Assembly (NCBI RefSeq): GCF_008807415.1
Contig: NZ_CP043626.1
Coordinates: forward strand, 1,674,001 to 1,738,000
Source: Pseudomonas denitrificans (nom. rej.)
GTDB taxonomy: Bacteria > Pseudomonadota > Gammaproteobacteria > Pseudomonadales > Pseudomonadaceae
Reading direction: 5' to 3'
Length of the DNA: 64,000 nt
Of this stretch, positions 21,179 through 40,249 are shown one piece after another (positions within the stretch are counted from its first letter, which is position 1; every line of letters begins with the position of its first letter). Under the pieces are notes generated by a model. The model ran no database searches, was not told the origin of the DNA, and saw nothing but the letters and a program-made list of their open reading frames with translations. A program made the translations under genes and the position numbers.

Positions 21179-22987
21179 ATGCAGCGCAGCGACTGGAGCG
21201 CCGAACGCGCGGTGGCCGCCGCCGGGGATTTCGCCGAGCTGCACGTGGCCCATGGCGGATTGCTGTGGGCTGCGTTCGACCCCATCAGTGCGCGCTGCCG
21301 GCTGTTCCTCCGTCGTGAAGGACAGAGCGTCGAGCTGACGCCGCCTGGGGCCTCGGTGCGCAGCCGCGTCTACGAATACGGCGGCGGTTCCTGCTGCGCC
21401 ACCGCCGACGGCGTGGCCTGGGTGGAAGAGGGCGACCAGCAGGTGTACTGGCTGCGCCTGGGTGGTGCGCCCCGGCCGATTACCCACCGCGACGACTGCC
21501 GCTACGGCGACCTGCACTACGTGCCGGCGTGGAATGCGCTGCTGGCGGTGGAAGAGGAGAACGGCAGCGGCGGGGTGAACCACCGCATCGTCCGCCTAGA
21601 TGCCGATGGACGGCGCCGGGTGATCGCGTCGGGCGCGGATTTCTATTCTTCCCCGGTGGCTGACAGCAGGGCCGAGCGCATTGTCTGGGTGGAGTGGGAC
21701 CGCCCGCACCAGCCCTGGACGCGCACCCGGCTGTGCGAATCCTTTGCCGGGGAAGAACGCTACCTGGCCGGGCAGGCCCGCCATGAATCCATCCAGCAGC
21801 CGCGCTTTGCCGAAGACGGCCGGTTGCACTGGCTCAGCGACTGCGCCGGCTACTGGCAGCCGTACCACGAAGTGCTCGGCGCCTTGTCCGGCGTCGCCGC
21901 CGACCACGCCAGCGCGCCCTGGCAACTTGGCGGGCGTACCTTCCTGCCGCTGCCGCGTGGCGAGCTGCTGGCAACGCGCTACGAAGAGGGGCGCGGCGTG
22001 CTGGTGCTGTATGACGGGCATGGCGGCGAGCGCCGGCTGGCACCGGAGTACAGCCGCTTCCGTTCGCTGGCGGCGGACGAGCGCCACTTCTATTGCATCG
22101 CCGCTGCGCCGGACCGCCTGCCGACGCTGCTGGCGATCCGCCGGGTGGACGGTTCCACCCAGGTGCTGGCCGGTGGCGAGAGGCCGTTGCCGGAGGCCGA
22201 GCTGTCCCGTGGCGAAGCCTTCCACTACCCGGTGGGCGAGGACGAATGCGGCCATGGATTCTTCTATCCGCCCTACGCCACGGACGGGGCTCCGCCGCTG
22301 GTGGTGTTCCTGCATGGCGGACCGACCTCGGCCAGCTACCCGGTGTTCGACGGGCGCATCCAGTTCTGGACGCGGCGGGGCTTTGCCGTCGCCGATATCA
22401 ACTATCGCGGCAGCAGCGGCTATGGCCGCGCCTACCGCGAGCGCCTGCATTTGGGCTGGGGGCAGGTGGAAGTGGAGGACATCGGCGCGGCGCTGGATTT
22501 TCTCTCTGGGGAAGGGCTTGCCAAGGCCGGGCGCATCGACCGCCAGCGGGTGTTCGTGCGTGGCGCCAGTGCCGGCGGCTACAGCGCGCTGATGGCGCTG
22601 GCACGGCTGCCGGGCTTGCGCGGCGGCGCCAGCCTCTATGGCGTCAGCGATCCGCAGGCGCTGGCGCGGGTCACCCACAAGTTCGAGGCGGACTACCTGG
22701 ACTGGCTGATCGGCGACCCGCATCAGGACGCCGAGCGCTACCGCGAGCGCACGCCGGTGCTGCAGGCCGAACACATCCACGCGCCGATGATCTTCTTCCA
22801 GGGCGAGCTGGATGCGGTGGTGGTGCCGGCGCAGACCGACGCCATGGTCGAAAGCCTGCGCCAGCGCGGCGTACCGGTGGAGGTACACCGCTATGCCGGG
22901 GAGCGCCATGGCTTCCGTCAGGCCGCCAACCTGGCCCACGCGCTGGAGGCCGAATGGCGTTTCTATCAGGCGCTGCTGGCGGGCTGA
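21179..22987 (+). CDS. pqqH: S9 prolyl-oligopeptidase-like peptidase of the pqq operon
   Basis: A protein of 602 residues: an N-terminal beta-propeller and a C-terminal alpha/beta-hydrolase with a complete triad, S464 in GASAGG, D545 in GELDAVV and H577 in GERHGF. It begins 2 bp after pqqE, so it is operonic. The P. aeruginosa homologue (PA1990) sits in the same place and is called pqqH. A role in proteolytic processing of PqqA is plausible but not shown by sequence. It has no signal peptide and is therefore cytoplasmic. Confidence 0.88.
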   Translation: MQRSDWSAERAVAAAGDFAELHVAHGGLLWAAFDPISARCRLFLRREGQSVELTPPGASVRSRVYEYGGGSCCATADGVAWVEEGDQQVYWLRLGGAPRPITHRDDCRYGDLHYVPAWNALLAVEEENGSGGVNHRIVRLDADGRRRVIASGADFYSSPVADSRAERIVWVEWDRPHQPWTRTRLCESFAGEERYLAGQARHESIQQPRFAEDGRLHWLSDCAGYWQPYHEVLGALSGVAADHASAPWQLGGRTFLPLPRGELLATRYEEGRGVLVLYDGHGGERRLAPEYSRFRSLAADERHFYCIAAAPDRLPTLLAIRRVDGSTQVLAGGERPLPEAELSRGEAFHYPVGEDECGHGFFYPPYATDGAPPLVVFLHGGPTSASYPVFDGRIQFWTRRGFAVADINYRGSSGYGRAYRERLHLGWGQVEVEDIGAALDFLSGEGLAKAGRIDRQRVFVRGASAGGYSALMALARLPGLRGGASLYGVSDPQALARVTHKFEADYLDWLIGDPHQDAERYRERTPVLQAEHIHAPMIFFQGELDAVVVPAQTDAMVESLRQRGVPVEVHRYAGERHGFRQAANLAHALEAEWRFYQALLAG

Positions 22988-23096
22988 TATCCGTCAGAAC
23001 CGACTGTCAGAACCGTCTGCCAAGGTCGCATTGCAATACCTGACGGATGCAGTAGGCTGCCGGAAATATCCCATAACAATAATGACAGAGCCCCCG

Positions 23097-24260
23097 ATGT
23101 CCCACGAGCTCAGCCAGCTGCGCAAGTTCGTCTCGCCAGAGATCATTTTCGGTGCCGGATGCCGGCACAATGTCGCCAATTACGTGAAAACCTTCGGCGC
23201 CCGCAAGGTGCTGGTCGTGTCGGACCCCGGTGTAGTCGCCGCCGGCTGGGTCGCCGATATCGAGGCCAGCCTGGCCGCCCAGGACATTCCCTTCTGCCGT
23301 TACACCCAGGTGTCGCCCAACCCGCGCGTGGAAGAAGTCATGCGTGGCGCCGACGTCTACCGCAGCGAAGGCTGCAACGTGATAGTCGCGGTCGGCGGCG
23401 GCAGCCCGATGGACTGCGCCAAGGGCATCGGCATCGTCGCCGCCCACGACCGCAACATCCTCGAGTTCGAGGGCGTGGACACCCTGCGCGTGCCCAGCCC
23501 GCCGCTGATCCTGATCCCCACTACCGCCGGTACCTCCGCCGACGTCTCGCAGTTCGTGATCATCTCCAACCAGGACGAGCGGATGAAGTTCTCCATCGTC
23601 AGCAAGGCGGTGGTGCCCGATGTGTCGCTGATCGACCCGGAAACCACCCTGACCATGGACCCGTTCCTCTCCGCCTGCACCGGCATCGATGCGCTGGTGC
23701 ACGCCATCGAGGCATTCGTTTCGACCGGCCACGGCCCGCTCACCGACCCCCACGCGCTGGAGGCCATGCGGCTGATCAACGGCAACCTGGTGCAGATGAT
23801 CGCCAACCCGGCGGACATCGCCCTGCGCGAGAAGATCATGCTGGGCAGCATGCAGGCGGGGCTGGCGTTCTCCAACGCGATCCTCGGCGCGGTGCACGCC
23901 ATGTCCCACAGCCTGGGCGGCTATCTCGACCTGCCGCACGGGCTGTGCAATGCCGTGCTGGTGGAGCACGTGGTGGCCTTCAACTACAGTGCCGCGCCCG
24001 AGCGCTTCAAGGTGATTGCCGAGACCTTCGGCATCGACTGCCGTGGCATGAACCATGCGCAGATCCGCCAGCGCCTGGTGGAACACCTGATCGCCCTGAA
24101 GAACGCCGTGGGCTTCCACGAAAGCCTGGGCCTGCATGGCGTAGGCAGTTCCGACATTCCCTTCCTCTCGCGCCACGCGATGCAGGACCCGTGCATCCTC
24201 ACCAACCCTCGCGAGTCCAGCCAGCGCGATGTCGAGGTGGTGTATGGCGAGGCCCTCTGA
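23097..24260 (+). CDS. ercA: Iron-containing alcohol dehydrogenase ErcA
   Basis: A protein of 387 residues of the group III Fe-dependent alcohol dehydrogenase family. It has the NAD site VGGGSPMDCAKG, the TTAGTSADVSQF segment, and metal ligands in DALVHAIEAF, GAVHAMSHSLGG and LPHG. In P. aeruginosa ErcA (PA1991) lies at the same position and belongs to the regulatory cascade of ethanol oxidation rather than to bulk catabolism. ATG 23097 is used; ATG 23082, in frame, would add five residues. The 3' end overlaps ercS by 17 bp, which suggests co-translation. Confidence 0.88.
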   Translation: MSHELSQLRKFVSPEIIFGAGCRHNVANYVKTFGARKVLVVSDPGVVAAGWVADIEASLAAQDIPFCRYTQVSPNPRVEEVMRGADVYRSEGCNVIVAVGGGSPMDCAKGIGIVAAHDRNILEFEGVDTLRVPSPPLILIPTTAGTSADVSQFVIISNQDERMKFSIVSKAVVPDVSLIDPETTLTMDPFLSACTGIDALVHAIEAFVSTGHGPLTDPHALEAMRLINGNLVQMIANPADIALREKIMLGSMQAGLAFSNAILGAVHAMSHSLGGYLDLPHGLCNAVLVEHVVAFNYSAAPERFKVIAETFGIDCRGMNHAQIRQRLVEHLIALKNAVGFHESLGLHGVGSSDIPFLSRHAMQDPCILTNPRESSQRDVEVVYGEAL

Positions 24261-25938
24261 CGAGCAGCAGCAACAGGCCCTGGCCGGGTTGCTCGGCCTG
24301 GGCAGCCATTCCGCGCGCAAGAGCCACTACCCCGAGCTGGTGGCGCGGCTGGACGAGCTGGAAGCCGAGCGCAACCGCTACAAATGGCTCTTCGAGCACG
24401 CCGTCCACGGTATCTTCCAGGCCAGCCTGAGCCAGGGCCTGCGCGCCGCCAACCCGGCGCTGGCGCGGATGCTCGGCTACGACGACCCGCAGCAGGTGCT
24501 GTTCAACCTGCAGGACATGGCCAGCCAGCTGTTCGTCGGCGGCGAGGCAGAGATGCGCCGCATCCGTGCGCTGCTGCGCGAGCGCGACGGCCTGTTCGGC
24601 TACGAGACGCGCCTGCGCCGCCGCGATGGCAGCCATGTGATCGTCCTGATGAACCTCTTGATCAAGCCGGATGAAGAAGGCCTGGTGGAAGGCTTCGTCG
24701 CCGACATCACCGAGCGCGTCCAGGCCCAGCAGCGCCTGCAGAGCCTGAACGAGGAGCTGGAGCAACGCGTCGCCGAGCGCACCCGTGAGCTGGAGGGGCT
24801 GAACCAGCAACTGCGCGAGGCTCGCGACGCCGCCGAGGCCGCCAACAACAGCAAGGACAAGTACCTGGCCGCCGCCAGTCACGACCTGCTGCAACCGCTG
24901 AATGCCGCGCGCCTGCTGGTTTCCACCCTGCGCGAGCGCAAGCTGCCGAACGCCGAACAGGTGCTGGTGGAGCGCACGCACCAGGCGCTGGAGGGCGCCG
25001 AGGACCTGCTCACCGACCTGCTGGAAATCGCCCGCCTGGACCAGAGCGCTATCCGCCCGGACCTGGATGTCTATCCGCTGGACGAACTGCTCGGGCCGCT
25101 GGTCTCGGAGTTCGACGAAGTGGCGCGCGCCGCCGGGCTGCGCCTGCGCTCACGGATTCCCGCGCTGGCGGTGCGCACCGATCATCGTCTGCTGTCGCGC
25201 ATCCTGCGCAACTTCCTCAGCAACGCCTGCCGCTACACCGAGCGCGGCAGCGTGATGCTCGCCGCGCGCCGGCGCGGCGATAGCGTCAGGCTGGAAGTCT
25301 GGGACACCGGACGGGGGATTCCGGCGGACCAGCTGCAAGCCATCTTCCTCGAATTCAACCAGCTCGACGCCGGGCGCACGGCCAACCGCCGCGGTGTCGG
25401 GCTGGGGCTGGCGATCGTCGACCGCATCGCCGGCATCCTCGGGTGCAGAGTGCAGGTGCACTCAGTGCCGGGGCGTGGTTCGGTGTTTTCCCTCGAGGTG
25501 CCGCTGGTGCGCGACCTGCCGCAACCGGGGCTGGTGGAGAGCGGCCCGCGCCCGGTGACCGGCGACCCACTGCCGGGCCGGCGCCTGCTGGTGATCGACA
25601 ACGAAGAAGCGATCCTCGCCAGCATGGCGGCGCTGCTCGGACAGTGGGGCTGCGAGGTGCTGGTGGCGACCAGCTACGAGGAAGCGCTGCAGGCGCTGGA
25701 TGGCAAGGCGCCGGAGGTGATCCTGGCCGACTACCACCTCGACCATGGCCGAACTGGCTGCGAAGCGGTGCGTGGGCTGCGCGAGTATTTCCGTCGCGAG
25801 CTACCGGCGCTGATGATCACCGCCGACCGCAGCGACGATTGCCGCCGTGCGTTGCAGCGGCTGGGGATGCCGTTGCTGAACAAGCCGGTGAAGCCGGGCA
25901 AGCTGCGCGCAACGCTGAGCGTGCTGCTGACTCATTGA
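24244..25938 (+). CDS. ercS: Hybrid sensor histidine kinase, ErcS-like
   Basis: A protein of 564 residues with no membrane segment, so it is a cytoplasmic sensor. Domains in order: PAS (about 35-160), coiled coil rich in Glu/Arg (160-205), HisKA with H213 in SHDLLQPLN, HATPase (GRGIPADQLQAIFLEF; GVGLGLAIV), and a receiver with D496 in ILADYHLD. The HDLLQPL dimerisation motif and the position after ercA match ErcS (PA1992) of P. aeruginosa, which works above ErdR, ErbR and ExaDE in ethanol oxidation control. No partner regulator is present in the window. Confidence 0.85.
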   Translation: MARPSDEQQQQALAGLLGLGSHSARKSHYPELVARLDELEAERNRYKWLFEHAVHGIFQASLSQGLRAANPALARMLGYDDPQQVLFNLQDMASQLFVGGEAEMRRIRALLRERDGLFGYETRLRRRDGSHVIVLMNLLIKPDEEGLVEGFVADITERVQAQQRLQSLNEELEQRVAERTRELEGLNQQLREARDAAEAANNSKDKYLAAASHDLLQPLNAARLLVSTLRERKLPNAEQVLVERTHQALEGAEDLLTDLLEIARLDQSAIRPDLDVYPLDELLGPLVSEFDEVARAAGLRLRSRIPALAVRTDHRLLSRILRNFLSNACRYTERGSVMLAARRRGDSVRLEVWDTGRGIPADQLQAIFLEFNQLDAGRTANRRGVGLGLAIVDRIAGILGCRVQVHSVPGRGSVFSLEVPLVRDLPQPGLVESGPRPVTGDPLPGRRLLVIDNEEAILASMAALLGQWGCEVLVATSYEEALQALDGKAPEVILADYHLDHGRTGCEAVRGLREYFRRELPALMITADRSDDCRRALQRLGMPLLNKPVKPGKLRATLSVLLTH

Positions 25939-25945
25939 AGGCCGT

Positions 25946-28469
25946 TCAGCCGTTCTTGCGCCCGAGCATGCCGTTGACCTTGTCGCGCAGCGCGTCGATG
26001 GAGAAGGGCTTGGCGATCATCGACATGCGCGTGGCCAGCTCGCTGCCATCGATGTGCACGATCTCGGCGTAGCCGGTGGCGAACAGGATCGGCAGCTCCG
26101 GTCGCGCCTCGCGCGCGGCCACGGCCAGTTCCTCGCCGTTCATGCCCGGCAGGCCGACATCGGTGAGCAGCAGGTGGATGGTGGTATCTCCCTGCAGGAT
26201 CGACAGCGCCTCTTCGGCGTCCTCGGCCTGCAGCACCTGGTAGCCAATCTCCTCCAGCACTTCCACGGTGAGCATGCGCACCAGGTCGTTGTCCTCGACG
26301 ACCAGGACGCACAGCTGCTCGTTGGCCGGTTCATTGGGGGCGTAGGGGCGTCGGGAATGCTGACCACTGAGGTGCCTCTCGGGAAATAGAGTGTGACGCA
26401 GGTGCCCTGGCCGGGCTCGCTGCGCAGGCGGATGTGCCCGCCGGATTGTTTGATGAAGCCGTAGACCATCGACAGGCCCAGCCCGCTGTTGGGGCCGATG
26501 CCCTTGGTGGTGAAGAAGGGGTCGAAGACGTGGGGCAGGGTCGCCTGGCTCATGCCCTGGCCGTTGTCCTGCAGGGATAGGGCGAGGTAGTCGCCGGCCG
26601 GCAGGTCATGCTCGCCGCTGACGATCTCCTGGCGCCGCAGGCTGATCTCCAGGCTGCCACCGCCGGGCATGGCGTCGCGGGCGTTCTCCACCAGGTGGAG
26701 CATGGCCTTGTGCAACTGGTCGCGATCGGTCAGGACGCTCTGCGTGTCATCCAGGGTGAGCGCCAATGTGACGTCCGGGCCGGCGCGTTCGACCAGTTCG
26801 TCGTGCCAGTTGCGCAGTTGCTGGCCGAGGTCGACCGGGTGCATGGCCAGCGCCTGACGGCGGGCAAAAGCCAGCAGGTTGTGGGTCAGCTCGGCGGCGC
26901 GCTCGGTGGCCTGGGTGGCGGCATGGAGGATGTGGCTGAGCTCCGGCTGGGCGTTGGCTGGCGCGCGGCGGGTGATCAGGTCGAGGCTGAAGCGAATGCT
27001 CGCCAGCAGGTTGTTGAAGTCATGGGCGATGCCACCGGTGAGCTGGCCGACAGCTTCCATGCGCTGGGCGTTGAGCAGGGCGGTCTGCGCCTGCTCCAGC
27101 AGTAGCGCGCCACGCTTCTGCTCGGTGATGTCGCGGCCGCAACCATAGATGACGCCGTTTTCCTCGGTGGCGTGCCAGGAAATCCAGCGATAGCTGCCAT
27201 CGGCGTGGCGCAGGCGGTTTTCGAAGTGCTGCAGGCGCTCGCCACGGGCGAGGGTGGAACGGATGTCGATGCTCGGCGCGAGGTCGTCCGGGTGCACCAG
27301 CTCTTCGCTGTTGCGGCCGGTGAGCTGCTCTTCGCTCCAGCCCAGCAGGCTGCCCCAGGCCGGGTTGACGTTGAGCAGCACGCCCTGGTGATCGAGCACG
27401 CAGAGCAGGTCCTGGCTCACTGTCCACACGCGGTCGCGCTCGCGGGTGCGCTGGCGGGCTTCTTCCTGTACGGCGACCTTCAGTCTGCGCTCTTCCGTAC
27501 GCTGGCTGGCGGCGGACAGGGCATGGCCGAGCAGGGCGGCCAGTTCGTTGAAGAAGGTCGCGTAGTTCTCGTCCAGGCGCCGACGCGGGCTGATGCCGAA
27601 TACCGCCAGGCTGTCGGTGTGGCCATCCAGCGGGGTGGCGTAGGTGCTGTCGAGCACTTCCGGCCAGGGCGCAAAGGCGCGCATGTGCTGGCTGCCCAGG
27701 GGGACTGGTGGGCTTCCTTGATACCGCCGAACAGGTGCAGAGGGTCGTCGTCCAGCGTCAGTTGCGCGGGGGCGAAGTGATCGTTGGTGTCGGTGCCGCA
27801 GGCGCCGAGCAGGGTGCCGGCATGGTAGAGCAGGCAGAAGGGCACGTCGTGGCTGGCTTCGGCAAGCAGGGCGAAAGCCTGGGCGCAGATCTGTGCGCTG
27901 TCGTCGGCCTGCCCGAGGCGCTCCGCCAGGCGCGTCAGCAGCCGCTGGCGGCGTTGCTCGATGACGTTGCCGGTGGTCTCCACGGCGGTATTGAACAGCC
28001 CGATGGGCTTGCCGTCCTGGCCGAAGATCGGGCTGACGTTGTAGGTGAAGTAGGCTTCCTCGACGTAGCCGAAACGCACCATGGGCAGCAGGCGGTCTTC
28101 CTCGTGGGCGGCCACGCCGGTCTGCAGGATGCCGTTGTACATGGGGTCGAGGATCGACCAGATGTCCGACCAGGCGACGTGCGCGGGCTGGCCCAGGCAG
28201 GCGGGATGCTTGTCCCCGGGGATGGCGCTCCAGGCGTCGTTGTACAGCAGGATGAATTCCGGGCCCCAGTAGATGCACACCGGCAGGCGCGAGTTCAGGC
28301 CGACTTCGAGGATGCCCTTGAGCGTGGCCGGCCACTGGTCCATCGGACCGAGCGGCGTGGTCGCCCAGTCGTACTGGCGGATCAGCGGTGCCATGGCGCT
28401 ACTGCTGTTGAGGAAGTCGCCCTGGCCCTGCACTGGTGAAATAGGGGTTTCCCCCGGGGAGCTTGGCAT
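25946..28469 (-). pseudogene. Hybrid histidine kinase (PAS-GAF-PAS-HK-receiver) broken by two frameshifts
   Basis: Three reading frames make up one kinase. An N-terminal PAS/GAF segment (from MPSSPGETP) runs to a GGGGG run at 27699-27703. The PAS-HisKA-HATPase part ([22 protein letters not shown]) follows to a second GGGGG run at 26336-26340. The receiver (LVVEDNDLVRMLTVEVLEE; phospho-Asp in LLTDVGLPGMNG) comes last. At both points one additional G would restore a single protein of about 840 residues. It has no membrane segment. It is convergent with ercS, only 7 bp apart, and divergent from the kinase/CheR/CheB run. The start is uncertain, as upstream in-frame starts exist. Assembly error or a two-hit pseudogene are the alternatives. 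Confidence 0.8.
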
Positions 28470-28759
28470 CGAGCAAACCCTGCGACCGATTGATCTTCTG
28501 TTCCTTGTCGGACGTTGGAAAGGCGCACCGGGAGATAATTCCACTTTTCTCCAGGCTTATTCCGTAAAAAGTTCGAACGTCCCGCAGGAGTGGCTGTCAA
28601 TTCGCCAGCTGGTATGTAGCCTACAACGCTTAGCGTTATTATTTCTCCAGTTTTAAGAACGTTCTTACAATAACTTCAAATACTTACCTGGCATCTGTCG
28701 CAATCTCGCCATGCCGGCGGGATGCATCCAGGGAAGATAGGCCATCAGGGAACCCGCAG
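28470..28759. promoter_or_regulatory. Divergent region between two hybrid kinase operons, two palindromes
   Basis: This 290-bp AT-richer gap holds a 13-bp palindrome AACGCTTAGCGTT (28625-28637) and a perfect 14-bp palindrome TAAGAACGTTCTTA (28654-28667). Their centres lie about 30 bp apart. They precede the CHASE3 kinase by about 100-130 bp and are candidate operator sites for an unknown regulator. Confidence 0.5.
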
Positions 28760-31700
28760 ATGAACCAGAAAGCCATCGCCGACGAAAGCGCCTTCCGCCG
28801 CATACTCGCGCGCAACATGGCGCTGCCACTGGGCATCTGCCTGCTGGGCGCGGTGCTGTTCATCGGCCTGATCCTCTACATGCTCGACGTGCTGGGCTGG
28901 GTCGAGCACACCGACCGGGTGATCTCCAGCGCCAACGAGATGCAGCGCCTGAGCGTCGACCAGGAAAGCGGGCTGCGCGGCTTCCTGATCACTGGCGATC
29001 CGGGCTTCCTGGAACCCCTGGAGCAGGCGCGGCCGCGCATCAATTCCGGCCTGAAGAGCCTCTCGGAGCTGGTGGCGGACAACCCGCCGCAGGTCGAGCG
29101 CGTGGGCCGCCTGACCTCGATGCAGGACGAGTGGATGAGCTTCGCCCAGCAGATGATCGAGCAGCGCCGCCAGGGCCAGGACACCTCCGACGCCATAAAG
29201 GCCGGGCGCGGCAAGAGCATGATGGATGCGATCCGCTCGCAGTACGCCTCGCTGATCAACACCGAGCAGCAGCTGCGCCACGACCGCAACCAGTTCGCTT
29301 CCAGCCTCTCCACCGGCGTGGTCATCCTCTACCTGGTATTCAGCATCGTGGTCGGCACGCTGCTGGCGTACTTCGGTCGCCGGCAGTTGGTCAGCCTGTC
29401 CGAGTCCTATGCCGAGTCCCTGCGTCGCCAGGTACTGCACAACGAAACGCTGGCGCGCCAGGCCTGGTTGCGTGATGGCCAGAGCCGCCTGGGCGAGCAG
29501 TTGATCGGTCAGCAGTCGTTGCCGTCCCTGGGGCGCAGCCTGATGGACTTCCTCGGCGAGTTCGTCGCCTCCCCGGTGGGAGCGCTCTATGTGCGCGATG
29601 ATCGCGGCGGTCTGCGCCTGTCCGGCACCTTCGGCTTCGCCACCAGCGTGCTGGGCGAGGATTATTTCGCCCCGGATGAAAGCCTGATCGCCCAGGCTGC
29701 CCGCCAGCGCAAGCTGCGGGTGGTCGACGGCCTGCCGCCGGACTACCTGAAGGTGAATTCCGCGCTGGGCAACGGCCAGCCGGTGAGCGTGGCGCTGCTC
29801 CCGCTGCTCAATGACGGCGGTGTGGTCGGCGTGCTGGAGCTGGGCTTCCTGCGCCAGCTGGAAGAGCGCGACCAGGCCTTCCTGCAGAACGTCGCCGAAA
29901 CGCTCGGCAGCGCCATCGCCTCGGCGCAGCATCGCCAGCGCCAGCAGGACCTGCTGGCGGAGACCCAGCAGCTCAATGAGGAGCTGCAGGTGCAGCAGGA
30001 AGAGCTGAAGACCGCCAACGAGGAGCTGGAAGAACAGTCGCGGGTGCTCAAGGAGTCCCAGGCGCACCTCGAGGCCCAGCAGGCGGAACTGGAGCAGACC
30101 AACGAGCGCCTCGCCGAGCAGGCCCAGGAGCTGGCCGCCCAGCGCGATGATCTCGACGGCAAGAACACCGAGCTGAACCAGGCCCGCCTGGACCTGCAGG
30201 GCCGCGCCGACGAGTTGCAGCGCGCCAGCCGCTACAAGTCCGAGTTCCTCGCCAACATGTCCCACGAGCTGCGCACGCCGCTCAACAGCTCGCTGATCCT
30301 CGCGCGCCTGCTGGCCGACAACGAGCAGGGCAACCTGGACGATGAGCAGGTGAAGTTCGCCGAGTCGATCTACGGCGCCGGCAACGACCTGCTCAACCTG
30401 ATCAACGACATCCTCGATATCTCCAAGGTCGAAGCCGGCAAGCTGGAAGTGCGCCCGGAGAACGCCAGCGTGCGTCGCCTGGTGGAAGCGCTGGAAGGGC
30501 TGTTCCGCCCGCAGGCCGACAACAAGGGCCTGCGCTTCATTGCCGAAGTCGCGGAGGACGCTCCGGCGCTGCTGTTCAGTGACCGCCAGCGGGTCGAGCA
30601 GATCCTCAAGAACCTGCTGTCCAACGCCTTCAAGTTCACCGACAGCGGTGAAGTTGCTCTGCGCGTGAGCGCCGCGCCCGAGGGGCTGCGCTTCGATGTG
30701 CGTGACAGCGGCATCGGTATCGCCGAGGACCAGCTTGCACGCATCTTCGAAGCCTTCCAGCAGGCCGATGGCGCCACCAATCGCCGCTACGGCGGCACCG
30801 GCCTTGGCCTGTCGATTTCCCGCGACCTGGCGCATCTGCTGGGCGGCAGCATCATCGTCAGCAGCGAGCCGGGCAAGGGCAGCGTGTTCAGCCTGCTGTT
30901 GCCGCTGAATTACCAGGCGCCGGCCGAGGACGAGGTAGTCAGCGCGCCTGCGCCGATTGTCGCGGTTGCCCCGACTGCCATTGCGCCGCCGGTGGTGCGT
31001 GCGCCGGCCGCCGCAGCATTCGCCGACGACCGCGAACAGGTCAGCGTCGGCCAGCGCTGCGTGCTGGTGGTGGAAGATGAGCCGAAGTTCGCCCGCATCC
31101 TCTATGACCTGGCTCGCGAGCTGGGTTACCGCTGCCTGGTGGCCATGGGCGCCGAGGAAGGCCTGCGCCTGGCCGACGAGCACGGCCCGGACGCCATCCT
31201 GCTGGACATGCACCTGCCCGACGAATCCGGCCTCGCCGTGCTGCAACGCCTGAAAGCCAACCCGCGCACCCGCCATGTGCCGGTACACGTGGTTTCCGTG
31301 GAGGACCGCAGCGAAGCGGCCCTGCACCTGGGCGCCATCGGTTACGCGCTCAAGCCCACCACCCGCGAGCAACTGCGCGAGGTCTTCGGCAAGCTGGAGG
31401 CCAAGCTGACCCAGGAGGTCAAGCGCATCCTGCTGGTCGAGGACGACCCGCTGCAGCGCGACAGCGTCTCGCGGCTGATCGGCGACGACGACATCGAGAT
31501 CACCGCGGTGGAGCAGGGCGAACAGGCCCTGGAGCTGCTGCGGCGCAACATCTACGACTGCATGATCATCGACCTCAAGCTGCCGGACATGCAGGGCAAC
31601 GAGCTGCTGCGGCGCATGGGCGAGGAGGACATCTGCTCGTTCCCGCCGGTGATCGTCTACACCGGGCGCAACCTGACCCGTGACGAGGAAGCCGAGCTGC

Positions 31701-32236
31701 TCAAGTATTCGCGCTCGATCATCATCAAGGGCGCGCGCTCGCCGGAGCGCCTGCTGGACGAGGTGACGCTGTTCCTGCACAAGGTCGAGTCGCAGCTCTC
31801 CAGTGAACGCCAGCGCATGCTGCGCACCTCGCGCAACCGCGACCGGGCCTTCGAGGAGCGGCGCATCCTGCTGGTGGACGACGACGTGCGCAACATCTTC
31901 GCCCTCACCAGCGCCCTGGAGCACAAGGGCGCCCGCGTGGAAGTGGCGCGCAACGGCCGCGAGGCCATCGAGAAGCTCGCCGAGGTCGGCGACATCGACC
32001 TGGTGCTGATGGACGTGATGATGCCGGAGATGGACGGCTACGAGGCGACCCGCCTGATCCGCCAGGACGCGCGCTTCAAGAAGCTGCCGATCCTCGCGGT
32101 GACCGCCAAGGCGATGAAGGACGACCACGAGCTGTGCCTGCGCGCTGGCGCCAACGACTACCTGGCCAAGCCCATCGACCTCGACCGCCTGTTCTCCCTG
32201 ATCCGGGTATGGCTACCCAAGCTGGAGCGCATCTGA
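28760..32236 (+). CDS. CHASE3-GAF hybrid histidine kinase with three receiver domains
   Basis: A protein of 1158 residues. A first membrane helix (about 20-42) and a second (about 185-207) flank a CHASE3 periplasmic domain (QESGLRGFLITGDPGFLEPLE). Then come GAF (about 240-390), a long Glu/Gln-rich coiled coil (about 398-490), HisKA with H502 in NMSHELRTPLN, HATPase (GTGLGLSISRDL), an Ala/Pro linker, and three receivers with D816, D938 and D1085. The next gene (CheR) starts 2 bp after the stop, followed by CheB and two further kinases. The coiled coil resembles methylation helices, so CheR/CheB may act on it; that is inference. Confidence 0.9.
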   Translation: MNQKAIADESAFRRILARNMALPLGICLLGAVLFIGLILYMLDVLGWVEHTDRVISSANEMQRLSVDQESGLRGFLITGDPGFLEPLEQARPRINSGLKSLSELVADNPPQVERVGRLTSMQDEWMSFAQQMIEQRRQGQDTSDAIKAGRGKSMMDAIRSQYASLINTEQQLRHDRNQFASSLSTGVVILYLVFSIVVGTLLAYFGRRQLVSLSESYAESLRRQVLHNETLARQAWLRDGQSRLGEQLIGQQSLPSLGRSLMDFLGEFVASPVGALYVRDDRGGLRLSGTFGFATSVLGEDYFAPDESLIAQAARQRKLRVVDGLPPDYLKVNSALGNGQPVSVALLPLLNDGGVVGVLELGFLRQLEERDQAFLQNVAETLGSAIASAQHRQRQQDLLAETQQLNEELQVQQEELKTANEELEEQSRVLKESQAHLEAQQAELEQTNERLAEQAQELAAQRDDLDGKNTELNQARLDLQGRADELQRASRYKSEFLANMSHELRTPLNSSLILARLLADNEQGNLDDEQVKFAESIYGAGNDLLNLINDILDISKVEAGKLEVRPENASVRRLVEALEGLFRPQADNKGLRFIAEVAEDAPALLFSDRQRVEQILKNLLSNAFKFTDSGEVALRVSAAPEGLRFDVRDSGIGIAEDQLARIFEAFQQADGATNRRYGGTGLGLSISRDLAHLLGGSIIVSSEPGKGSVFSLLLPLNYQAPAEDEVVSAPAPIVAVAPTAIAPPVVRAPAAAAFADDREQVSVGQRCVLVVEDEPKFARILYDLARELGYRCLVAMGAEEGLRLADEHGPDAILLDMHLPDESGLAVLQRLKANPRTRHVPVHVVSVEDRSEAALHLGAIGYALKPTTREQLREVFGKLEAKLTQEVKRILLVEDDPLQRDSVSRLIGDDDIEITAVEQGEQALELLRRNIYDCMIIDLKLPDMQGNELLRRMGEEDICSFPPVIVYTGRNLTRDEEAELLKYSRSIIIKGARSPERLLDEVTLFLHKVESQLSSERQRMLRTSRNRDRAFEERRILLVDDDVRNIFALTSALEHKGARVEVARNGREAIEKLAEVGDIDLVLMDVMMPEMDGYEATRLIRQDARFKKLPILAVTAKAMKDDHELCLRAGANDYLAKPIDLDRLFSLIRVWLPKLERI

Positions 32237-32237
32237 C

Positions 32238-33056
32238 ATGCCTGATCGCAGCCAGGACATCGAGCTGCGCCTCCTGATCGAGGCGATCTACCTGAAGTAC
32301 AGCTACGACTTCCGCGACTACTCCGGCACCTCGCTCAAGCGCCGTGTGCTGCACGCTACCAAGCTGTTCGAGTGCCGCAGCATCTCGGCCCTGCAGGAGC
32401 GCATCCTGCACGACCCGCACGCCTTCCATGAGCTGCTGCAGTACCTGACCATCTCGGTGAGCGAGCTGTTCCGCGACCCCAGCTACTTCCTCGCGCTGCG
32501 CCAGGAAGTGGTGCCGGTGCTGCGCACCTATCCGTCGCTGCGCCTGTGGGTGGCCGGCTGCAGCACCGGCGAAGAGGTGCATTCGCTGGCCATCCTGCTG
32601 CACGAGGAAGGCCTGCTCGAGCGCACGCTGATCTACGCCACCGACATCAACCCTCGCTCGCTGGAGCAGGCGCGGCGCGGCATCTACGCGGTGGACGACC
32701 TGGCCCAGGCCAGCGAGAACTACCGCGCCGCTGGCGGCAAGGGTTCGCTCTCGGACTACTACACGGCGGCCTACGACGGGGCGCTGTTCGACAAGATGCT
32801 GCGCGCCAACGTGACCTTCGCCGATCACAGCCTGGCTACTGACAGCGTGTTCTCCGAGACGCACCTGGTCTCCTGCCGCAACGTGCTCATCTACTTCAAC
32901 CGCCAGTTGCAGAACCGCGCCATCGGCCTGTTCCATGAGTCGCTGTGCCACCGGGGCTTCCTCGGCCTGGGCAGCAAGGAAAGCCTGGACTTCACCGACT
33001 TCGCCGGGGAATTCGAGGTGGTGAATCGCCGTGAACGGGTGTTCCGCAAGCGATGA
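32238..33056 (+). CDS. CheR-type protein-glutamate methyltransferase
   Basis: A protein of 272 residues with the CheR N-terminal helical domain and a SAM-binding core (LWVAGCSTGEEVHSLAI; YATDINPRSLEQARRG; LVSCRNVLIYFN). It methylates glutamates on signalling proteins. No chemoreceptor, CheA or CheW lies near; the partners in this operon are histidine kinases. It begins 2 bp after the CHASE3 kinase and overlaps CheB (ATGA), so it is clearly co-translated. The likely substrate is a coiled-coil region of a neighbouring kinase, by inference. Confidence 0.92.
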   Translation: MPDRSQDIELRLLIEAIYLKYSYDFRDYSGTSLKRRVLHATKLFECRSISALQERILHDPHAFHELLQYLTISVSELFRDPSYFLALRQEVVPVLRTYPSLRLWVAGCSTGEEVHSLAILLHEEGLLERTLIYATDINPRSLEQARRGIYAVDDLAQASENYRAAGGKGSLSDYYTAAYDGALFDKMLRANVTFADHSLATDSVFSETHLVSCRNVLIYFNRQLQNRAIGLFHESLCHRGFLGLGSKESLDFTDFAGEFEVVNRRERVFRKR

Positions 33057-33640
33057 ACGCGCAGCGCAAGGTCGAAGCCGTGGTCATCGGCGCCTCGGCG
33101 GGCGGCGTGGACGCGCTGTTCCAGCTGTTCGACGGGTTGCCGGCGGACTTCGCCCTGCCCATGGTGGCAGTGCTGCACCTGCCGGAAAACCACGAGAGCC
33201 AGTTGGTCGACCTGTTCGCCCGGCGCCTGGCGATCCCCGTGGAGGAGGCTCGCGACAAGGCGCCGGTGGAGGCGGGCACGCTGTACTTCGCCGCTGCCGG
33301 GTATCACCTGTCCATCGAGCGGGAGCGCAGTTTTGCGTTGAGTCGCGAGGCACCGCGGAATTTCTCCCGGCCGTCCATCGACATCCTTTTCGACTCGGCG
33401 GCGGACGCTTACCGGGAGAATCTCGCCGGCATCCTGCTGACCGGAGCCAACCAGGACACCGCCGAAGGGCTGGCGCGTATCCGCCGCGAGGGCGGGCTGA
33501 GCATTGTCCAGGACCCGGCCGAAGCCGCCGTGTCCACCATGCCGGAGGCGGCTATTGCACAGCACGCCCCGGACCACATACTTCGGCTGCGTGAAATTCA
33601 CGCGCTACTGACCCGAATGGGCACCCGACATGCTGCGTAA
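33053..33640 (+). CDS. Stand-alone CheB-type methylesterase domain
   Basis: A protein of 195 residues comprising only the CheB catalytic domain; the usual receiver is missing. The catalytic Ser is S15 in GASAGGVDAL, the His lies in LHLPENHES, and the Asp is in LTGANQDTAEG. It removes methyl esters placed by CheR. The ATG overlaps the CheR stop, and its 3' end overlaps the next kinase by 11 bp. Lack of a receiver suggests control by a partner or constitutive activity. Confidence 0.9.
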   Translation: MNAQRKVEAVVIGASAGGVDALFQLFDGLPADFALPMVAVLHLPENHESQLVDLFARRLAIPVEEARDKAPVEAGTLYFAAAGYHLSIERERSFALSREAPRNFSRPSIDILFDSAADAYRENLAGILLTGANQDTAEGLARIRREGGLSIVQDPAEAAVSTMPEAAIAQHAPDHILRLREIHALLTRMGTRHAA

Positions 33641-34814
33641 CCAGGGAAGCAAACTGCTGATCGTCGACGACCTGCCGGAGAACCTGCTGGCGCTGGAGGC
33701 GTTGATCAAGGGCGAGGGGCGCGAGGTGTTCAAGGCCTCCTCGGCGGATGAGGCGCTGTCGCTGCTGCTGGAGCACGAATTCGCCCTGGCGCTGCTCGAT
33801 GTGCAGATGCCCGGCATGGACGGTTTCGCCCTGGCCGAGCTGATGCGCGGCACCGAACGCACCAAGAGCATCCCCATCGTCTTCGTCACCGCCGCCGGGC
33901 GCGAGCAGAACTACGCGTTCAAGGGCTACGAGAGCGGCGCGGTGGACTTCCTCTACAAGCCGCTGGACAACCACGCGGTGCGCAGCAAGGTGAACGTCTT
34001 CGTCGATCTGTATCGCCAGCGCAAGGTGCTGGCACGGCAGCTGGAAGCACTGGAGCAGGCGCGCAGCGAGCAGGACGCGCTGCTCGCCGAGCTGCGCGAG
34101 ACCCAGGTGGAGCTGCAGCGGGCGGTGAAAATGCGCGACGACTTCATGTCCATCGTCTCCCACGAGCTGCGCACGCCGCTCAACGGCCTGATGCTGGATA
34201 CCCAGTTGCGCCGTCTTTACCTGTCCAAGGGCAAGCTGGAGCACTTCGCGCAGGACCGCCTGGGCGTGCTCTTCGAGCGCGACGAGCGCCAGCTCACCGG
34301 CTTGAACCGGCTGATCGAAGACATGCTCGACGTCTCGCGTATCCGCACCGGCAAGCTGTCGATCCGCCCGGAGCCGGCGAACCTCGCCGATATCGCCCGC
34401 CGCGTGCTGGGCAACTTCGCGGTGCAAGCGCAGGCGGCCGGTTGCGAACTGAGCCTGGAGACGCCTGAAGTGGTGGAAGGCGTGTGGGACGCCTACCGCC
34501 TGGAGCAGGTGATCAGCAACCTGGTCAGCAACGCCCTGCGCTATGGGCCCGGCCAGCCGGTGGAAGTGACCGTCGCGGTGGCGGATGGCCGCGCGCAACT
34601 CTGCGTGCGCGACCATGGCGACGGCATCAGCGCCGACGAGCAGCGGCGCATCTTCCAGCAATTCGAACGTGGCGCCGGCGCGGCCCGTGTCGCCGGCCTG
34701 GGTTTGGGGCTGTTCATCTCCGAGCAGATCGTCCAGGCCCACGGCGGCCGCATCGAGTTGCGCAGCGAGCCGGGGTTCGGTGCGGAGTTCAGCGTCTTCC
34801 TGCCGCTGGACTGA
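33630..34814 (+). CDS. Receiver-histidine kinase fusion
   Basis: A protein of 394 residues: an N-terminal receiver (D57 in ALLDVQMPGMDG), a coiled-coil linker (about 125-165), HisKA with H178 in IVSHELRTPLNGL, and HATPase (VAGLGLGLFISEQIVQ). It has no membrane helix. Such receiver-first kinases take phosphate from an upstream kinase or are gated by it. Overlap with CheB and the order in the operon suggest that it works downstream of the three-receiver kinase. No DNA-binding output domain is present. Confidence 0.9.
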   Translation: MLRNQGSKLLIVDDLPENLLALEALIKGEGREVFKASSADEALSLLLEHEFALALLDVQMPGMDGFALAELMRGTERTKSIPIVFVTAAGREQNYAFKGYESGAVDFLYKPLDNHAVRSKVNVFVDLYRQRKVLARQLEALEQARSEQDALLAELRETQVELQRAVKMRDDFMSIVSHELRTPLNGLMLDTQLRRLYLSKGKLEHFAQDRLGVLFERDERQLTGLNRLIEDMLDVSRIRTGKLSIRPEPANLADIARRVLGNFAVQAQAAGCELSLETPEVVEGVWDAYRLEQVISNLVSNALRYGPGQPVEVTVAVADGRAQLCVRDHGDGISADEQRRIFQQFERGAGAARVAGLGLGLFISEQIVQAHGGRIELRSEPGFGAEFSVFLPLD

Positions 34815-34888
34815 GTGCCGTCCGGCGGCGCCCGAAGTGAGGTGGCTGCGCCTATGCTTTGCTCCAATGAGCCAAGAGAGCAGACTTG

Positions 34889-36838
34889 ATGCCCGATACG
34901 ACCGCCAGCACCGCCCAGCTCGTCGAAGATGCGCGCTACCGCCTGCTGGTCGAGGCGGTGACCGACTACGCCATCTACATGCTCGACCCCGATGGCCGCG
35001 TCAGCAGCTGGAGCTCCGGGGCGCAGCGCCTGAAGGGCTACGCCGCCGATGAGATACTCGGCGAGCACTTCTCGCGTTTCTATACCCCCGCCGACCGCGC
35101 AGCCGGGCTGCCGGAGCTGGCACTGGGCGAGGCGGCGCGGGTCGGGCGCTTCGAGAGTGAGGGCTGGCGCCTGCACCGCGATGGCAGTTCGTTCTGGGCC
35201 CACGTGGTGATCGACGCCATCCGCGATGTTTCCGGGGAGCTGCTGGGCTTCGCCAAGATCACCCGCGACCGCACCGAGCAGCACGAGACCGAACAGGCCC
35301 TGCGCCGCAGCGAGCAGCATTTCCGCCTGCTGGTCAATGGCGTCACCGACTACGCGCTGTACATGCTTGACCCCGAGGGCAATGTCACCAGCTGGAACTC
35401 CGGCGCGGAGCGGATCAAGGGCTACCATCCCGAAGAAATCATCGGTCGTCGTTTCGAGTGTTTCTACTGCGACGAGGATCGCCAGGGAGGCGTTCCCGAG
35501 ACCAGCCTGAGCACCGCGCTGGCCGAGGGGCGCTACGAGGAAGAACGCCTGCAGATGCGCAAGGACGGCTCGCGGTTCTGGGCCAATATCGTCATCGACC
35601 CGGTATTCGACGACGCCGGCAAGCTGCTGGGTTTCGCCAAGATCACCCGCGACATCACCGACAAGCGCCGCGTCCAGGAAGAGCTGGAGCGCGCCCGCGA
35701 CGAACTGATCCAGTCGCAGAAGATGGAGTCACTCGGCCAGCTGACCGGCGGCGTCGCCCACGACTTCAATAACCTGCTGACAGTGATCCTTGGCGGGCTG
35801 CAGTTGCTCGAACGACAACTGCCCAGGGACAACGAGAAGGTCCAGAACATCTGGCGCAACGCGCTGGAGGCGACCCGCCGCGGCGCCCAGCTGACCCAGC
35901 GGATGCTGGCCTTTGCGCGCAAGCAGCGGCTGTTCCCGCAACCGATCCAGCTGCCGGCACTGCTGCAGGACATGAGCGAGCTGCTGGTCAGCTCCCTGGG
36001 CCCGACCATCAGCCTGGAGACGCGCTTTCCGCTTCAGCTGGACTGCGTGATGAGCGACCAGAACCAGCTGGAGCTGGCGATCATCAACCTCGCCACCAAC
36101 GCCCGCGACGCCATGCCTGGCGGCGGCAGCATCACCTTCTCGGCACGCAATGCCCAGGTCGGGCCGCGCCAGAGCGGCAAGCTGGCGCCGGGGGACTACG
36201 TGTGCCTGGCCATGACCGACTCGGGGCTGGGCATGGACGAGGACACCCTGCGCCGCGCCGCCGAGCCATTCTTCACCACCAAGCCGACCGGCAAGGGCAC
36301 GGGGCTGGGATTGTCCATCGTCCATGGACTGGCCCAGCAGCAGGGCGGCGCGCTGCTGTTGCGCAGTACGCCAGGGCAGGGCACCACCGCGGAAATCTGG
36401 TTGCCGGCGGTGAAGACGAAGGCGGAGCTGGTAGCAGAAAGCACCGAACTGCCGCCCGATGCGATGGGCGAACCCCTGGAGCCGCTGGACCTGCGGGTGC
36501 TGGTGGTGGACGATGACGCGCTGGTGCTGGCCGGCACCAGCGCGCTGCTGGCGGACCTGGGTTGCCAGGTCGCGCGAACCGATTCGGCGCGGGCGGCGCT
36601 GCAATGGCTGGAGCAGTCCGACTTCGACCTGATGATCACCGATTTCGCCATGCCGGACATGGACGGCATGCTGCTGATCCAGCAGGTGCGCCAGTCCTAC
36701 CCCGCATTGACCTGTGTGCTGACCACCGGTTACGCGGGACGGCTGGATACTCTGGCCGACTCGGTGGTGCGTCTGCCCAAACCCTTCGACCGCGACCAGT
36801 TGCTGGCTTTGCTGCTGCAGGTGAAGCACGTCGGGTAG
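34889..36838 (+). CDS. Hybrid histidine kinase with two PAS domains and a receiver
   Basis: A protein of 649 residues. Two tandem, similar PAS domains (VEAVTDYAIYMLDPDGRV and VNGVTDYALYMLDPEGNV) are followed by HisKA with H291 in [11 protein letters not shown], HATPase (NARDAMPGGG; GTGLGLSIVHG) and a C-terminal receiver with D585 in MITDFAMPDMDG. It is soluble. ATG 34889 follows AAGAGAG; a TTG one codon upstream is possible. It lies 74 bp after the receiver-kinase, so it may be in the same operon or start from its own weak promoter. Confidence 0.9.
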   Translation: MPDTTASTAQLVEDARYRLLVEAVTDYAIYMLDPDGRVSSWSSGAQRLKGYAADEILGEHFSRFYTPADRAAGLPELALGEAARVGRFESEGWRLHRDGSSFWAHVVIDAIRDVSGELLGFAKITRDRTEQHETEQALRRSEQHFRLLVNGVTDYALYMLDPEGNVTSWNSGAERIKGYHPEEIIGRRFECFYCDEDRQGGVPETSLSTALAEGRYEEERLQMRKDGSRFWANIVIDPVFDDAGKLLGFAKITRDITDKRRVQEELERARDELIQSQKMESLGQLTGGVAHDFNNLLTVILGGLQLLERQLPRDNEKVQNIWRNALEATRRGAQLTQRMLAFARKQRLFPQPIQLPALLQDMSELLVSSLGPTISLETRFPLQLDCVMSDQNQLELAIINLATNARDAMPGGGSITFSARNAQVGPRQSGKLAPGDYVCLAMTDSGLGMDEDTLRRAAEPFFTTKPTGKGTGLGLSIVHGLAQQQGGALLLRSTPGQGTTAEIWLPAVKTKAELVAESTELPPDAMGEPLEPLDLRVLVVDDDALVLAGTSALLADLGCQVARTDSARAALQWLEQSDFDLMITDFAMPDMDGMLLIQQVRQSYPALTCVLTTGYAGRLDTLADSVVRLPKPFDRDQLLALLLQVKHVG

Positions 36839-38424: not shown

Positions 38425-38697
38425 GTGGACCTGGGTAAAATCCTGCGCCGTAGCGCGCTTTACTGGCCTGACCGCGCAGCCGTGGTCGACTCCCGCCAAC
38501 GTATCACCTTCGCCGACCTCGAACGCCGCACCAGCCGCCTGGCCTCAGGGCTGCTGGCGCTGGCGCTGGCGCTGGGGCAGGGCGCCCGGGCGTCCATCTA
38601 TATCGCCCCGGCCTGGGCGATGGCGGGCGGATTGCCGGACTGGCGCGCGCACTGGCATCACGCCTGTCGACACTGGCCTAGGTGTCGTCGCTGCTGA
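38425..38697 (+). pseudogene. N-terminal fragment of an AMP-binding acyl-CoA synthetase-like gene
   Basis: A GTG-started frame reads DLGKILRRSALYWPDRAAVV, then RQRITFADLERRTSRLASGL, which matches the first 50-60 residues of AMP-forming acyl-CoA synthetases. After about residue 60 the similarity stops: the rest (AHWHHACRHWPRC) is unrelated and runs into the 3' end of the diguanylate cyclase gene. The adenylation core is absent, so this is a remnant of a deleted gene. Confidence 0.6.
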
Positions 38698-40249
38698 CGA
38701 CGCGGTTGCGGCCGCTCTGCTTGGCGCTGTACAAGCGCTGGTCGGCGAGCTTGAGCACCGCTTCCGGGGTCACGGCCAGTGCGCCCAGGTCGGCGACGCC
38801 GATGGACAGCGTGACCAGCCCCACCTGCGGTATCTGCGTGAGTGCCACAGTCTCGCGGATGCGTTCGGCAATGCCGGTGGCGGTTTCCAGGGACGTCTGC
38901 GGCAGCAGCAGGACGAATTCCTCGCCACCGGCGCGGCAGGCCAGGTCGCCGGCGCGGGACGAGTCGCGCAGCACCGCCGCGATCCGCCGCAGGGCTTCGT
39001 CGCCGGCATCGTGGCCCCAGGTGTCGTTGACCCGCTTGAAGTGGTCGATATCCACCGCGAGTACCGAGTAGGCCACCCCGGATTGCTCCAGCGCATCCAG
39101 CGCTACACCCAGCGCGCGGCGGTTGGCCAGGCCGGTGAGGGCGTCGCTTTGCGCCTCCTGGCTCAGCTGGCCGAGCTTCTGCTGCATCAGACCGACACCG
39201 GTGAGCAGCGCCTTGCGGATCGCCGCCGCTTCGCGGTACCAGGTCTTGATGCCCTGTAGTTCGCGGGGCGTTTCCGGGTTCGACAACTGCTCGGCGCTCA
39301 GCGCCAGCTGGCGCAGCGGTCGGGTGATCAGCAGGGTGCCGACCCAGATCGCCAGCACGCCGAGCAGGCTCGCCGGGATCAGTCCCAGCAGCATGTCCTT
39401 CATCAGCAGGTTCAGCGGCGACAGGCTGAGGTCACGCGGCTGCTGGGCTACCACTGCCCAGTTGGCTTCCGGCACCTGGGCGTAACCGGCGAGCATGGGC
39501 ACGCCCTGGTAGTTGAGTACCTCCATGGAACCGCTCTCGCCGCGCAGGGCGGCCTCGATGGTGCTGCTGTGATTCACCACCTCGCCGACGCGCTCGCGGA
39601 CGGGGTGGTGCAGCAGCCGGTGGTTGGCGTCGGCAACGAAGGCGAAGGTGCCTTCCTGCTGGAAGTGGCTGCCGATGATGCTATGCAGCACGCTGGGCTT
39701 GAGGATGTACACCGAGCCACCGACCAGGCCCAGGTACTCGCCGCTCGGGCTGGTGATCGGCTGCGAGATCAGTACCACGAGGTTGCCGGCGATGGACTCG
39801 TAGGCCTGGCTGATCTTCGGCTGCTTCAGGCGCAGCGCTTCCTTTACGGCCTCCGAGCGCAGCGTGGTGCCGACGATCTGCAGCGAGTCGGGATAGGCCT
39901 GCAGGACCTTGCCACTGGCGTCGACGATGATGATGGAGTTGAAGAAGGCGTCCTGGGCCTGCAGGCGCATCGCCTCGGCGTGCAGTACCGGCGGTTCGTC
40001 GAAGTGGTTGGCGAGTATCCCGGAGCTGTAGGCCAGGTTGCGCCGCGCGGAGCCGAGGAACTCGTGAATGCTCGACGCCACCTTGGCTGCGTAGGCGCGA
40101 TTGGCCTCCAGCGTCGAGTGGATCAGCGCGCTGCGCTGCACGTTGTAGGCGACCACCAGGCTGTTGCCGAGGGTGGCCAGCGCGGCGAGCAGCACGAAGA
40201 CCAGTATCAGCATCCGCAACGTCAGCGGTTTGCGGCTCCAGCGCTTCAT
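38678..40249 (-). CDS. Membrane diguanylate cyclase (dCache-GGDEF)
   Basis: A protein of 523 residues. A membrane helix at about 12-34, an extracytoplasmic dCache-like sensor (about 40-290), a second helix (about 295-320), a HAMP-like linker, then a GGDEF domain (about 365-520). The active motif is GGEEF in CRAGGEEFVLLL, compatible with catalysis. An inhibitory I-site RxxD (RAGD) lies five residues upstream. The protein makes c-di-GMP in response to an external signal. Its 3' end overlaps the acyl-CoA synthetase remnant by 20 bp. No partner is evident. Confidence 0.9.
   Translation of the reverse strand: MKRWSRKPLTLRMLILVFVLLAALATLGNSLVVAYNVQRSALIHSTLEANRAYAAKVASSIHEFLGSARRNLAYSSGILANHFDEPPVLHAEAMRLQAQDAFFNSIIIVDASGKVLQAYPDSLQIVGTTLRSEAVKEALRLKQPKISQAYESIAGNLVVLISQPITSPSGEYLGLVGGSVYILKPSVLHSIIGSHFQQEGTFAFVADANHRLLHHPVRERVGEVVNHSSTIEAALRGESGSMEVLNYQGVPMLAGYAQVPEANWAVVAQQPRDLSLSPLNLLMKDMLLGLIPASLLGVLAIWVGTLLITRPLRQLALSAEQLSNPETPRELQGIKTWYREAAAIRKALLTGVGLMQQKLGQLSQEAQSDALTGLANRRALGVALDALEQSGVAYSVLAVDIDHFKRVNDTWGHDAGDEALRRIAAVLRDSSRAGDLACRAGGEEFVLLLPQTSLETATGIAERIRETVALTQIPQVGLVTLSIGVADLGALAVTPEAVLKLADQRLYSAKQSGRNRVVSSDDT

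Follow-up and report, generated by a model that had tools for sequence, protein, structure and literature searches.

The window analyzed here is a stretch of 64,000 nucleotides from Pseudomonas denitrificans (nom. rej.) (NZ_CP043626.1, positions 1,674,001 to 1,738,000). It contains a run of genes for a hybrid histidine kinase, a CheR-type methyltransferase, a CheB-type methylesterase, and a receiver-kinase. The data assign CheR and CheB to the kinase rather than to a chemoreceptor, a conclusion well supported by conserved gene order and by four nearly complete genomes that keep the locus but lack chemoreceptors. Glutamate methylation is known as a means of adaptation in chemoreceptors. We propose, with a probability of roughly 50%, that CheR and CheB act on a coil within the kinase, that coil methylation gives kinase adaptation, and that phosphate passes from the module to a diguanylate cyclase regulator.

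The four genes named above represent the bms/cfcABCDE cluster of pseudomonads, and clusters of this make-up have been in print since 2016 (PMC4951495, 2016; PMC8175716, 2021). What is new here is the comparative evidence on the role of CheR and CheB; the cluster itself is a known biofilm and cyclic diguanylate (c-di-GMP) kinase cluster. The window shows the bms/cfc architecture, with a CHASE3-GAF-kinase protein bearing three receivers followed by CheR, CheB, and a receiver-kinase. On the basis of architecture and gene order, the window kinase is probably orthologous to CfcA and BmsA. The Pseudomonas putida cluster (PP_3761) was named cfcABCDE, and its diguanylate cyclase regulator, CfcR, depends on CfcA (PMC4951495). 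CfcA is described as a hybrid kinase with CHASE3 and GAF domains that CfcR requires (PMC6849547), and residue His496 of CfcA is reported in print to be needed for CfcR activity. The cfcA gene heads a five-gene cluster in which cfcB and cfcC code for CheR and CheB and a receiver is found in CfcD (PMC4951495, PMC6849547). In Pseudomonas brassicacearum, kinase 3082 has three receivers and is encoded beside CheR (3081), CheB (3080), and a hybrid kinase (3079); bmsA of Pseudomonas alkylphenolica is termed orthologous to 3082 (PMC8175716). The third receiver of 3082 clusters with the receiver of GacS, and a chimeric GacS bearing it acts via GacA; for the phenotypes tested, the 3082 mutant was like wild type (PMC8175716). 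All four genes are present in the P. brassicacearum record of our own set (L084; L and G numbers are our labels for loci and genomes). The name bmsABCD reportedly comes from Lee 2016, whose abstract is said to state that only deletion of bmsA changed biofilm and that deletions of bmsB-D had no biofilm effect. Tagua 2022, going by its title, is said to link CfcA/CfcR to salts. We found no report of histidine kinase methylation by CheR in the literature searched, which left out most subscription papers.

Conservation of the gene order ties CheR and CheB to the kinase. Our near relatives were the best 80 of 538 CheR relatives from a scan of named genomes. The kinase lies upstream of CheR, with CheB and the receiver-kinase downstream, in all 80; L073, a short contig, gave a partial kinase match, and L042 gave a partial receiver-kinase match. 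The initial annotation had treated the run as a five-gene unit that includes a PAS-PAS hybrid kinase after the fourth gene, a feature in which the window differs from bms/cfc clusters. Conservation of the unit covers the first four genes only, because this fifth kinase follows in just 3 of the 80 relatives (L015, L017, L018) and a receiver-only gene of 125-167 residues follows in 46 (neither type is present in 31). We therefore dropped the PAS-PAS kinase as a member of the unit.

The pairing extends to distant bacteria. At E <= 1e-40, this CheR has relatives in 22/369 genomes of a class sample and 79/398 genomes of a phylum sample. We selected 60 further loci (CheR identity 35-71%) from 123 distinct matches, a choice of our own that was weighted to distant ones, and scored as upstream any same-strand kinase frame whose end fell no more than 2.6 kb ahead of the CheR frame's own end. 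By this definition a histidine kinase lies just upstream of CheR in 48 of the 60 loci, and 41 of these kinases have at least three receivers. The 12 loci scored as lacking an upstream kinase include contig ends, odd neighbors, and fused or split genes. CheB is fused to CheR in 8/60 loci, and a receiver domain was found in none of the 46 CheB frames of this set. A genome survey of this co-occurrence had been suggested with the initial annotation, and its outcome bears out the association of kinase and CheR.

Could the cluster's CheR and CheB instead act on chemoreceptors encoded elsewhere in the genome? Methyl-accepting chemotaxis proteins (MCPs) are the normal targets of such enzymes, and the host genome has 30 MCP-domain matches above cut-off. 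The same genome also has five other CheR loci, several with CheB nearby, which counts against this reading. Near related CheRs, CheA and CheW were found at 0/140 loci and MCPs at 0/80 near and 6/60 further loci, as judged by phmmer with references from the host genome, a search that distant homologs may escape. The more telling result came from a search for the MCP signaling domain in 80 genomes, out of 95 that encode this CheR. The domain is present in 75 and was not matched in G029, G115, G329, G690, or G038. The first four of these genomes are 97-100% complete, contain the kinase-CheR locus, and gave neither an MCP nor a CheW-domain match. CheR cannot serve a chemoreceptor in those four genomes because none is there, and a chemoreceptor client is excluded in at least these four. 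We thus rejected the chemoreceptor as the principal client and regard such a role in the cluster generally as very improbable. Their loci (L133, L141, L142, L159) retain the kinase, the coil motif described below, and CheR, and their CheRs sit in three places of the CheR tree. The single CheB copy lies at the locus in G029 and G329, and G690 has a copy on another contig. We did not count G038 as a fifth case, as it is 81% complete, has a CheW domain, and contains a CheR that groups with a CheB/CheR fusion (L150). The idea in the initial annotation that CheR and CheB go with the kinase rather than with an MCP elsewhere is well supported by these genomes, which also make the question clean, as they offer CheR no chemoreceptor as a target.

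CheR and CheB of these loci look like active enzymes. Core residues of CheR are retained in 53-61 of 61 sequences in aligned columns, and R79, C108, D136, N215, and Y219 are retained in 58-61; these cover the S-adenosylmethionine site and catalytic positions of the family. In the CheR of L159, Glu replaces the Asp of the ATD motif. The CheB Ser-His-Asp triad (S15, H42, D135) is present in 47/47 aligned sequences. We built a tree that included three of the host genome's five other CheRs. In it, 60 CheRs drawn from these loci and the window fall together, separated from those three by a branch with support 97/91. The closest solved structure for the window CheR is 5ftw, the CheR of Bacillus subtilis; the predicted structure had a mean pLDDT (predicted local distance difference test) of 54.7 and was not used. 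Inspection found the H-boxes, receivers, and CheB triad of the window genes intact. Separately, a CheB near another CheR of the host genome (C1:5482828) is split over two overlapping frames (G000:C1:5481186-5481715, minus strand).

These data also bear on whether CheR and CheB are passengers of little present function, with BmsA/CfcA alone giving the phenotypes. The other cfc mutants of P. putida kept the crinkle phenotype, according to an unpublished remark (PMC4951495); this observation favors passengers and weighs against adaptation of the kinase by methylation. The reported effect of bmsA deletion alone on biofilm (Lee 2016) also favors passengers. We consider a passenger role improbable because neutral drift would hardly preserve gene order, overlaps, and catalytic residues over distant genomes.

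If CheR and CheB modify the kinase, the most plausible site is the coil between GAF and HisKA. We measured its conservation in an unanchored alignment of 29 sequences drawn from the 80-locus set and the window, and relied on this alignment in place of a pattern-anchored count, which partly fixes its own outcome. Mean entropy is 0.34 bits over residues 392-448, compared to 0.28 in HisKA, 1.06 in the lower coil, 1.24 at the end of GAF, and 0.74 in the ATPase domain. The heptad pattern is that of a coiled coil, with quiet a and d positions (0.16 bits each) and variable b (1.05), c (0.94), and f (1.20) positions. Exposed Glu pairs at b and c (E407/E408, E414/E415, E421/E422) are nevertheless invariant, save for E408 (0.22 bits). 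The Glu/Gln-rich stretch that the initial annotation had drawn over residues 398-490 is real, but its strong conservation is confined to the upper half.

A core motif, EE[LIM]xx[SAT]N, occurs in 121/127 CheR-linked coils, comprising 80/80 near relatives including the window and 41/47 further coils. The L165 upstream kinase gave no H-box and, like L073, stands outside the coil counts. Thinning at 75% left the motif in 40/45 linked coils. Among other histidine kinases of the host genome it was found in 0/12 with an H-box; these came from 20 regions, the rest of which, a CheB/CheR fusion among them, were uncounted. Heptads like EELKAS conform to the consensus of chemoreceptors, Glx-Glx-x-x-Ala-Ser/Thr.

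As a control we examined similar coils located away from this CheR. The coil query matched 80 places in 69/398 genomes; 59 of these places precede this CheR at a distance of no more than 8 kb, and the other 21 do not. We fetched 20 of the 21 unlinked regions, leaving out G733. A phmmer search found no CheR in these 20 regions and a CheB in one (L189); a CheR may lie beside the L201 kinase, which runs to a contig end. Genomes described as lacking this CheR are those with no match at E <= 1e-40, which is not absence of every CheR, and the unlinked kinases come from few clades. The triple Glu-pair pattern occurs in 0/16 unlinked kinases from genomes without this CheR type versus 102/127 linked coils. 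Among four unlinked kinases from genomes that have this CheR, three carry the motif and one carries the triple pattern. The unlinked group includes GAF-coil-kinase proteins with three receivers (L185-L188, L190-L198, L202, L203; most about 1900-2100 residues), which share the core and a similar coil with BmsA and are mostly followed by a REC-HK-REC or REC gene, but differ in having no CheR by phmmer within their 19-kb regions. A separate observation concerns L184 (G599:C12), which codes for a bmsA-like kinase of 1157 residues that keeps the three Glu pairs in its coil and has no CheR or CheB found nearby. Its genome also has a kinase-CheR locus (L151), making it a natural test case.

Several observations weigh against methylation of the coil. 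The core motif is present in 4/16 kinases from genomes without this CheR type (L185-L188, which are nearly alike), and association of motif with linkage was not significant after thinning (40/45 vs 4/6, p 0.19). Five of the 45 thinned linked coils lack the motif, and the strict chemoreceptor consensus occurs in just 9 of the 45. The kinase coil is a linker before HisKA and not a four-helix bundle like that of chemoreceptors. No CheB match was found in the receptor-less genome G115, where CheR is present; reversibility is therefore not universal. The coil evidence for methylation is thus only suggestive, given the motif in unlinked kinases and the thinned comparison. Of the initial claim that CheR and CheB adapt the kinase by methylation, the association of enzymes with kinase stands on gene order and the receptor-less genomes; methylation of the coil draws indirect support from the exposed Glu pairs and from heptads in fused kinases, and the linkage control was not significant after thinning. 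By this comparison the coil ranks first among candidate substrates of CheR, and we place its odds at about even.

The main competitor, unlikely in our estimate, is that CheR and CheB act within the module on another partner, such as BmsD, the GAF domain, or a downstream regulator, or through non-catalytic binding. The CheB gene overlaps bmsD, which follows in all 80 near relatives. The motif is present in 4/16 kinases from genomes without this CheR type and may therefore serve signaling alone. At several of the 60 further loci, however, other receiver proteins take the place of BmsD while the kinase-CheR pair is retained, and the kept catalytic residues of both enzymes argue against a purely structural role.

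Kinases fused to CheB and CheR offer a comparison to the coil. The host genome encodes a CheB-CheR-coil-PAS-kinase-receiver fusion of 1379 residues (G000:C1:1923024-1927160; L222 1525-5661). Its coil is very strictly conserved (STEELKASNEELQAINEEL; 8000 relatives scored). Motif heptads occur in the coil of 118/120 listed fusion relatives and nowhere else in those proteins; all 120 came from one query at 56% identity or above. Like the bms/cfc module, the fusions bring CheB, CheR, and kinase together as one unit and have coil heptads of the EELKASNEEL type. They differ in being a single polypeptide, in having the coil before PAS domains, and in a CheR that falls outside the kinase-linked group. 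At E <= 1 the BmsA coil query missed the coil of the host genome's fusion, so the likeness between the two coils is limited to short heptads, a further point against methylation of the BmsA coil.

The initial annotation pictured the run as having no output. This idea is not supported for the cluster at large: in P. putida, CfcR, an unlinked diguanylate cyclase, has been described as the output (PMC4951495), and 14/60 further loci have a same-strand receiver-GGDEF gene downstream of CheR whose start is no more than 3.4 kb away. L134 and L143 are copies among the 14. Pfam analysis of eight of them gave REC-PAS-GGDEF-EAL (four), REC-GAF-GGDEF-EAL (one), REC-GGDEF-EAL (one), and REC-GGDEF (two), and the loci of receptor-less genomes G115 and G329 (L141, L142) are included among the 14. 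These neighbors agree with the CfcA-CfcR pair of P. putida. In the host genome, we saw no CfcR-like regulator among 16 matches to the BmsD receiver (E <= 1e-10), a result that weighs against the proposed output route; the 16 include BmsD itself and a BmsA receiver, three were read (each with an HD-GYP-like part, by eye), and the others were judged by frame length.

We combine these results in the following model. A membrane hybrid kinase would work with a CheR/CheB pair of its own and with a receiver-kinase as partner. CHASE3 and GAF would sense, and the signal would run down the coil to HisKA. CheR would methylate, and CheB demethylate, the exposed Glu pairs of the upper coil (about residues 407-422), shifting the set point of the coil and thereby adapting the kinase. 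Phosphate would exit via the receivers to a diguanylate cyclase regulator that controls c-di-GMP and biofilm; this regulator would be CfcR in P. putida, and in some other bacteria its gene would neighbor that of CheR. The coil as substrate, a change in kinase output upon methylation, and the output route in the host genome are what we infer from the comparisons. The pathway would in effect resemble Wsp (WspA-F, WspR) but would have no chemoreceptor, CheW, or CheA. The two share CheR/CheB adaptation enzymes and, at the 14 loci above, a receiver-GGDEF output; they differ in that the five genes of the run include no MCP, CheW, or CheA and the sensor is a histidine kinase. The broader proposal, that BmsA/CfcA-type kinases are methyl-accepting and that some receptor-less bacteria have a complete adapting c-di-GMP pathway made up of the kinase, CheR, CheB, and a REC-PAS-GGDEF-EAL regulator, is tentative and falls somewhat short of even odds. 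If histidine kinases of this type are methyl-accepting, a large class of CheR and CheB genes located away from chemotaxis clusters would be given a role, and sensory adaptation in the control of c-di-GMP and biofilm could be tested in P. putida KT2440, a common laboratory strain.

The features of the run are listed in Table 1. The open reading frame list and Pfam agree with the initial annotation on the positions and spacings of the five genes and on their domain make-up. Kinase A has CHASE3 (47-178), GAF (252-387), HisKA (493-560), HATPase (608-716), and three REC domains. One base separates its stop from CheR, CheR and CheB overlap by 4 bases, CheB and receiver-kinase D overlap by 11 bases, and 71 bases separate D from the PAS-PAS kinase. 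As initially described, no MCP, CheA, CheW, or output domain was found in the Pfam scan of the five gene products; the closest MCP match within the window is 22 kb off (58604-59068, minus strand). The host genome is closed (6.88 Mb), and best matches to the window genes are in P. nitroreducens, P. nicosulfuronedens, and close relatives (CheR 97-99%, BmsA 92-98%).

Table 1. Genes and coil region of the kinase-CheR-CheB run, in window positions
Feature	Position	Strand	Length	Basis and remarks
Kinase A (bmsA/cfcA-type)	28760..32236	+	1158 aa	Open reading frame list, Pfam
Upper coil of kinase A, residues 392-448, candidate methylation region	29933..30103	+		Entropy in alignment, motif counts
CheR-type methyltransferase (bmsB/cfcB by position)	32238..33056	+	272 aa	Pfam, CheR and its N domain
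CheB-type methylesterase without receiver (bmsC/cfcC by position)	33053..33640	+	195 aa	Pfam
Receiver-kinase D (bmsD/cfcD by position)	33630..34814	+	394 aa	Pfam, REC-HisKA-HATPase
PAS-PAS-HisKA-HATPase-REC hybrid kinase, neighbor outside the conserved unit	34886..36838	+	650 aa	Pfam; TTG start

Other features of the window were recorded along the way. A 1127-residue open frame opposite bmsA (28745-32128, minus strand) is probably a shadow of the high-GC coding sequence. A PAS-HisKA-HATPase-receiver hybrid kinase at 25946-28544 on the minus strand is seemingly spread over three frames (27480-28544, 26140-28335, 25946-26281); its match is unbroken in relatives such as L014, indicating a broken gene or sequence errors here. 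A dCache-GGDEF diguanylate cyclase is encoded 1.8 kb past the run (38678-40249, minus strand). At 22812-25938, an iron alcohol dehydrogenase gene is followed by an overlapping PAS-kinase-receiver gene, a pair resembling ErcA/ErcS'.

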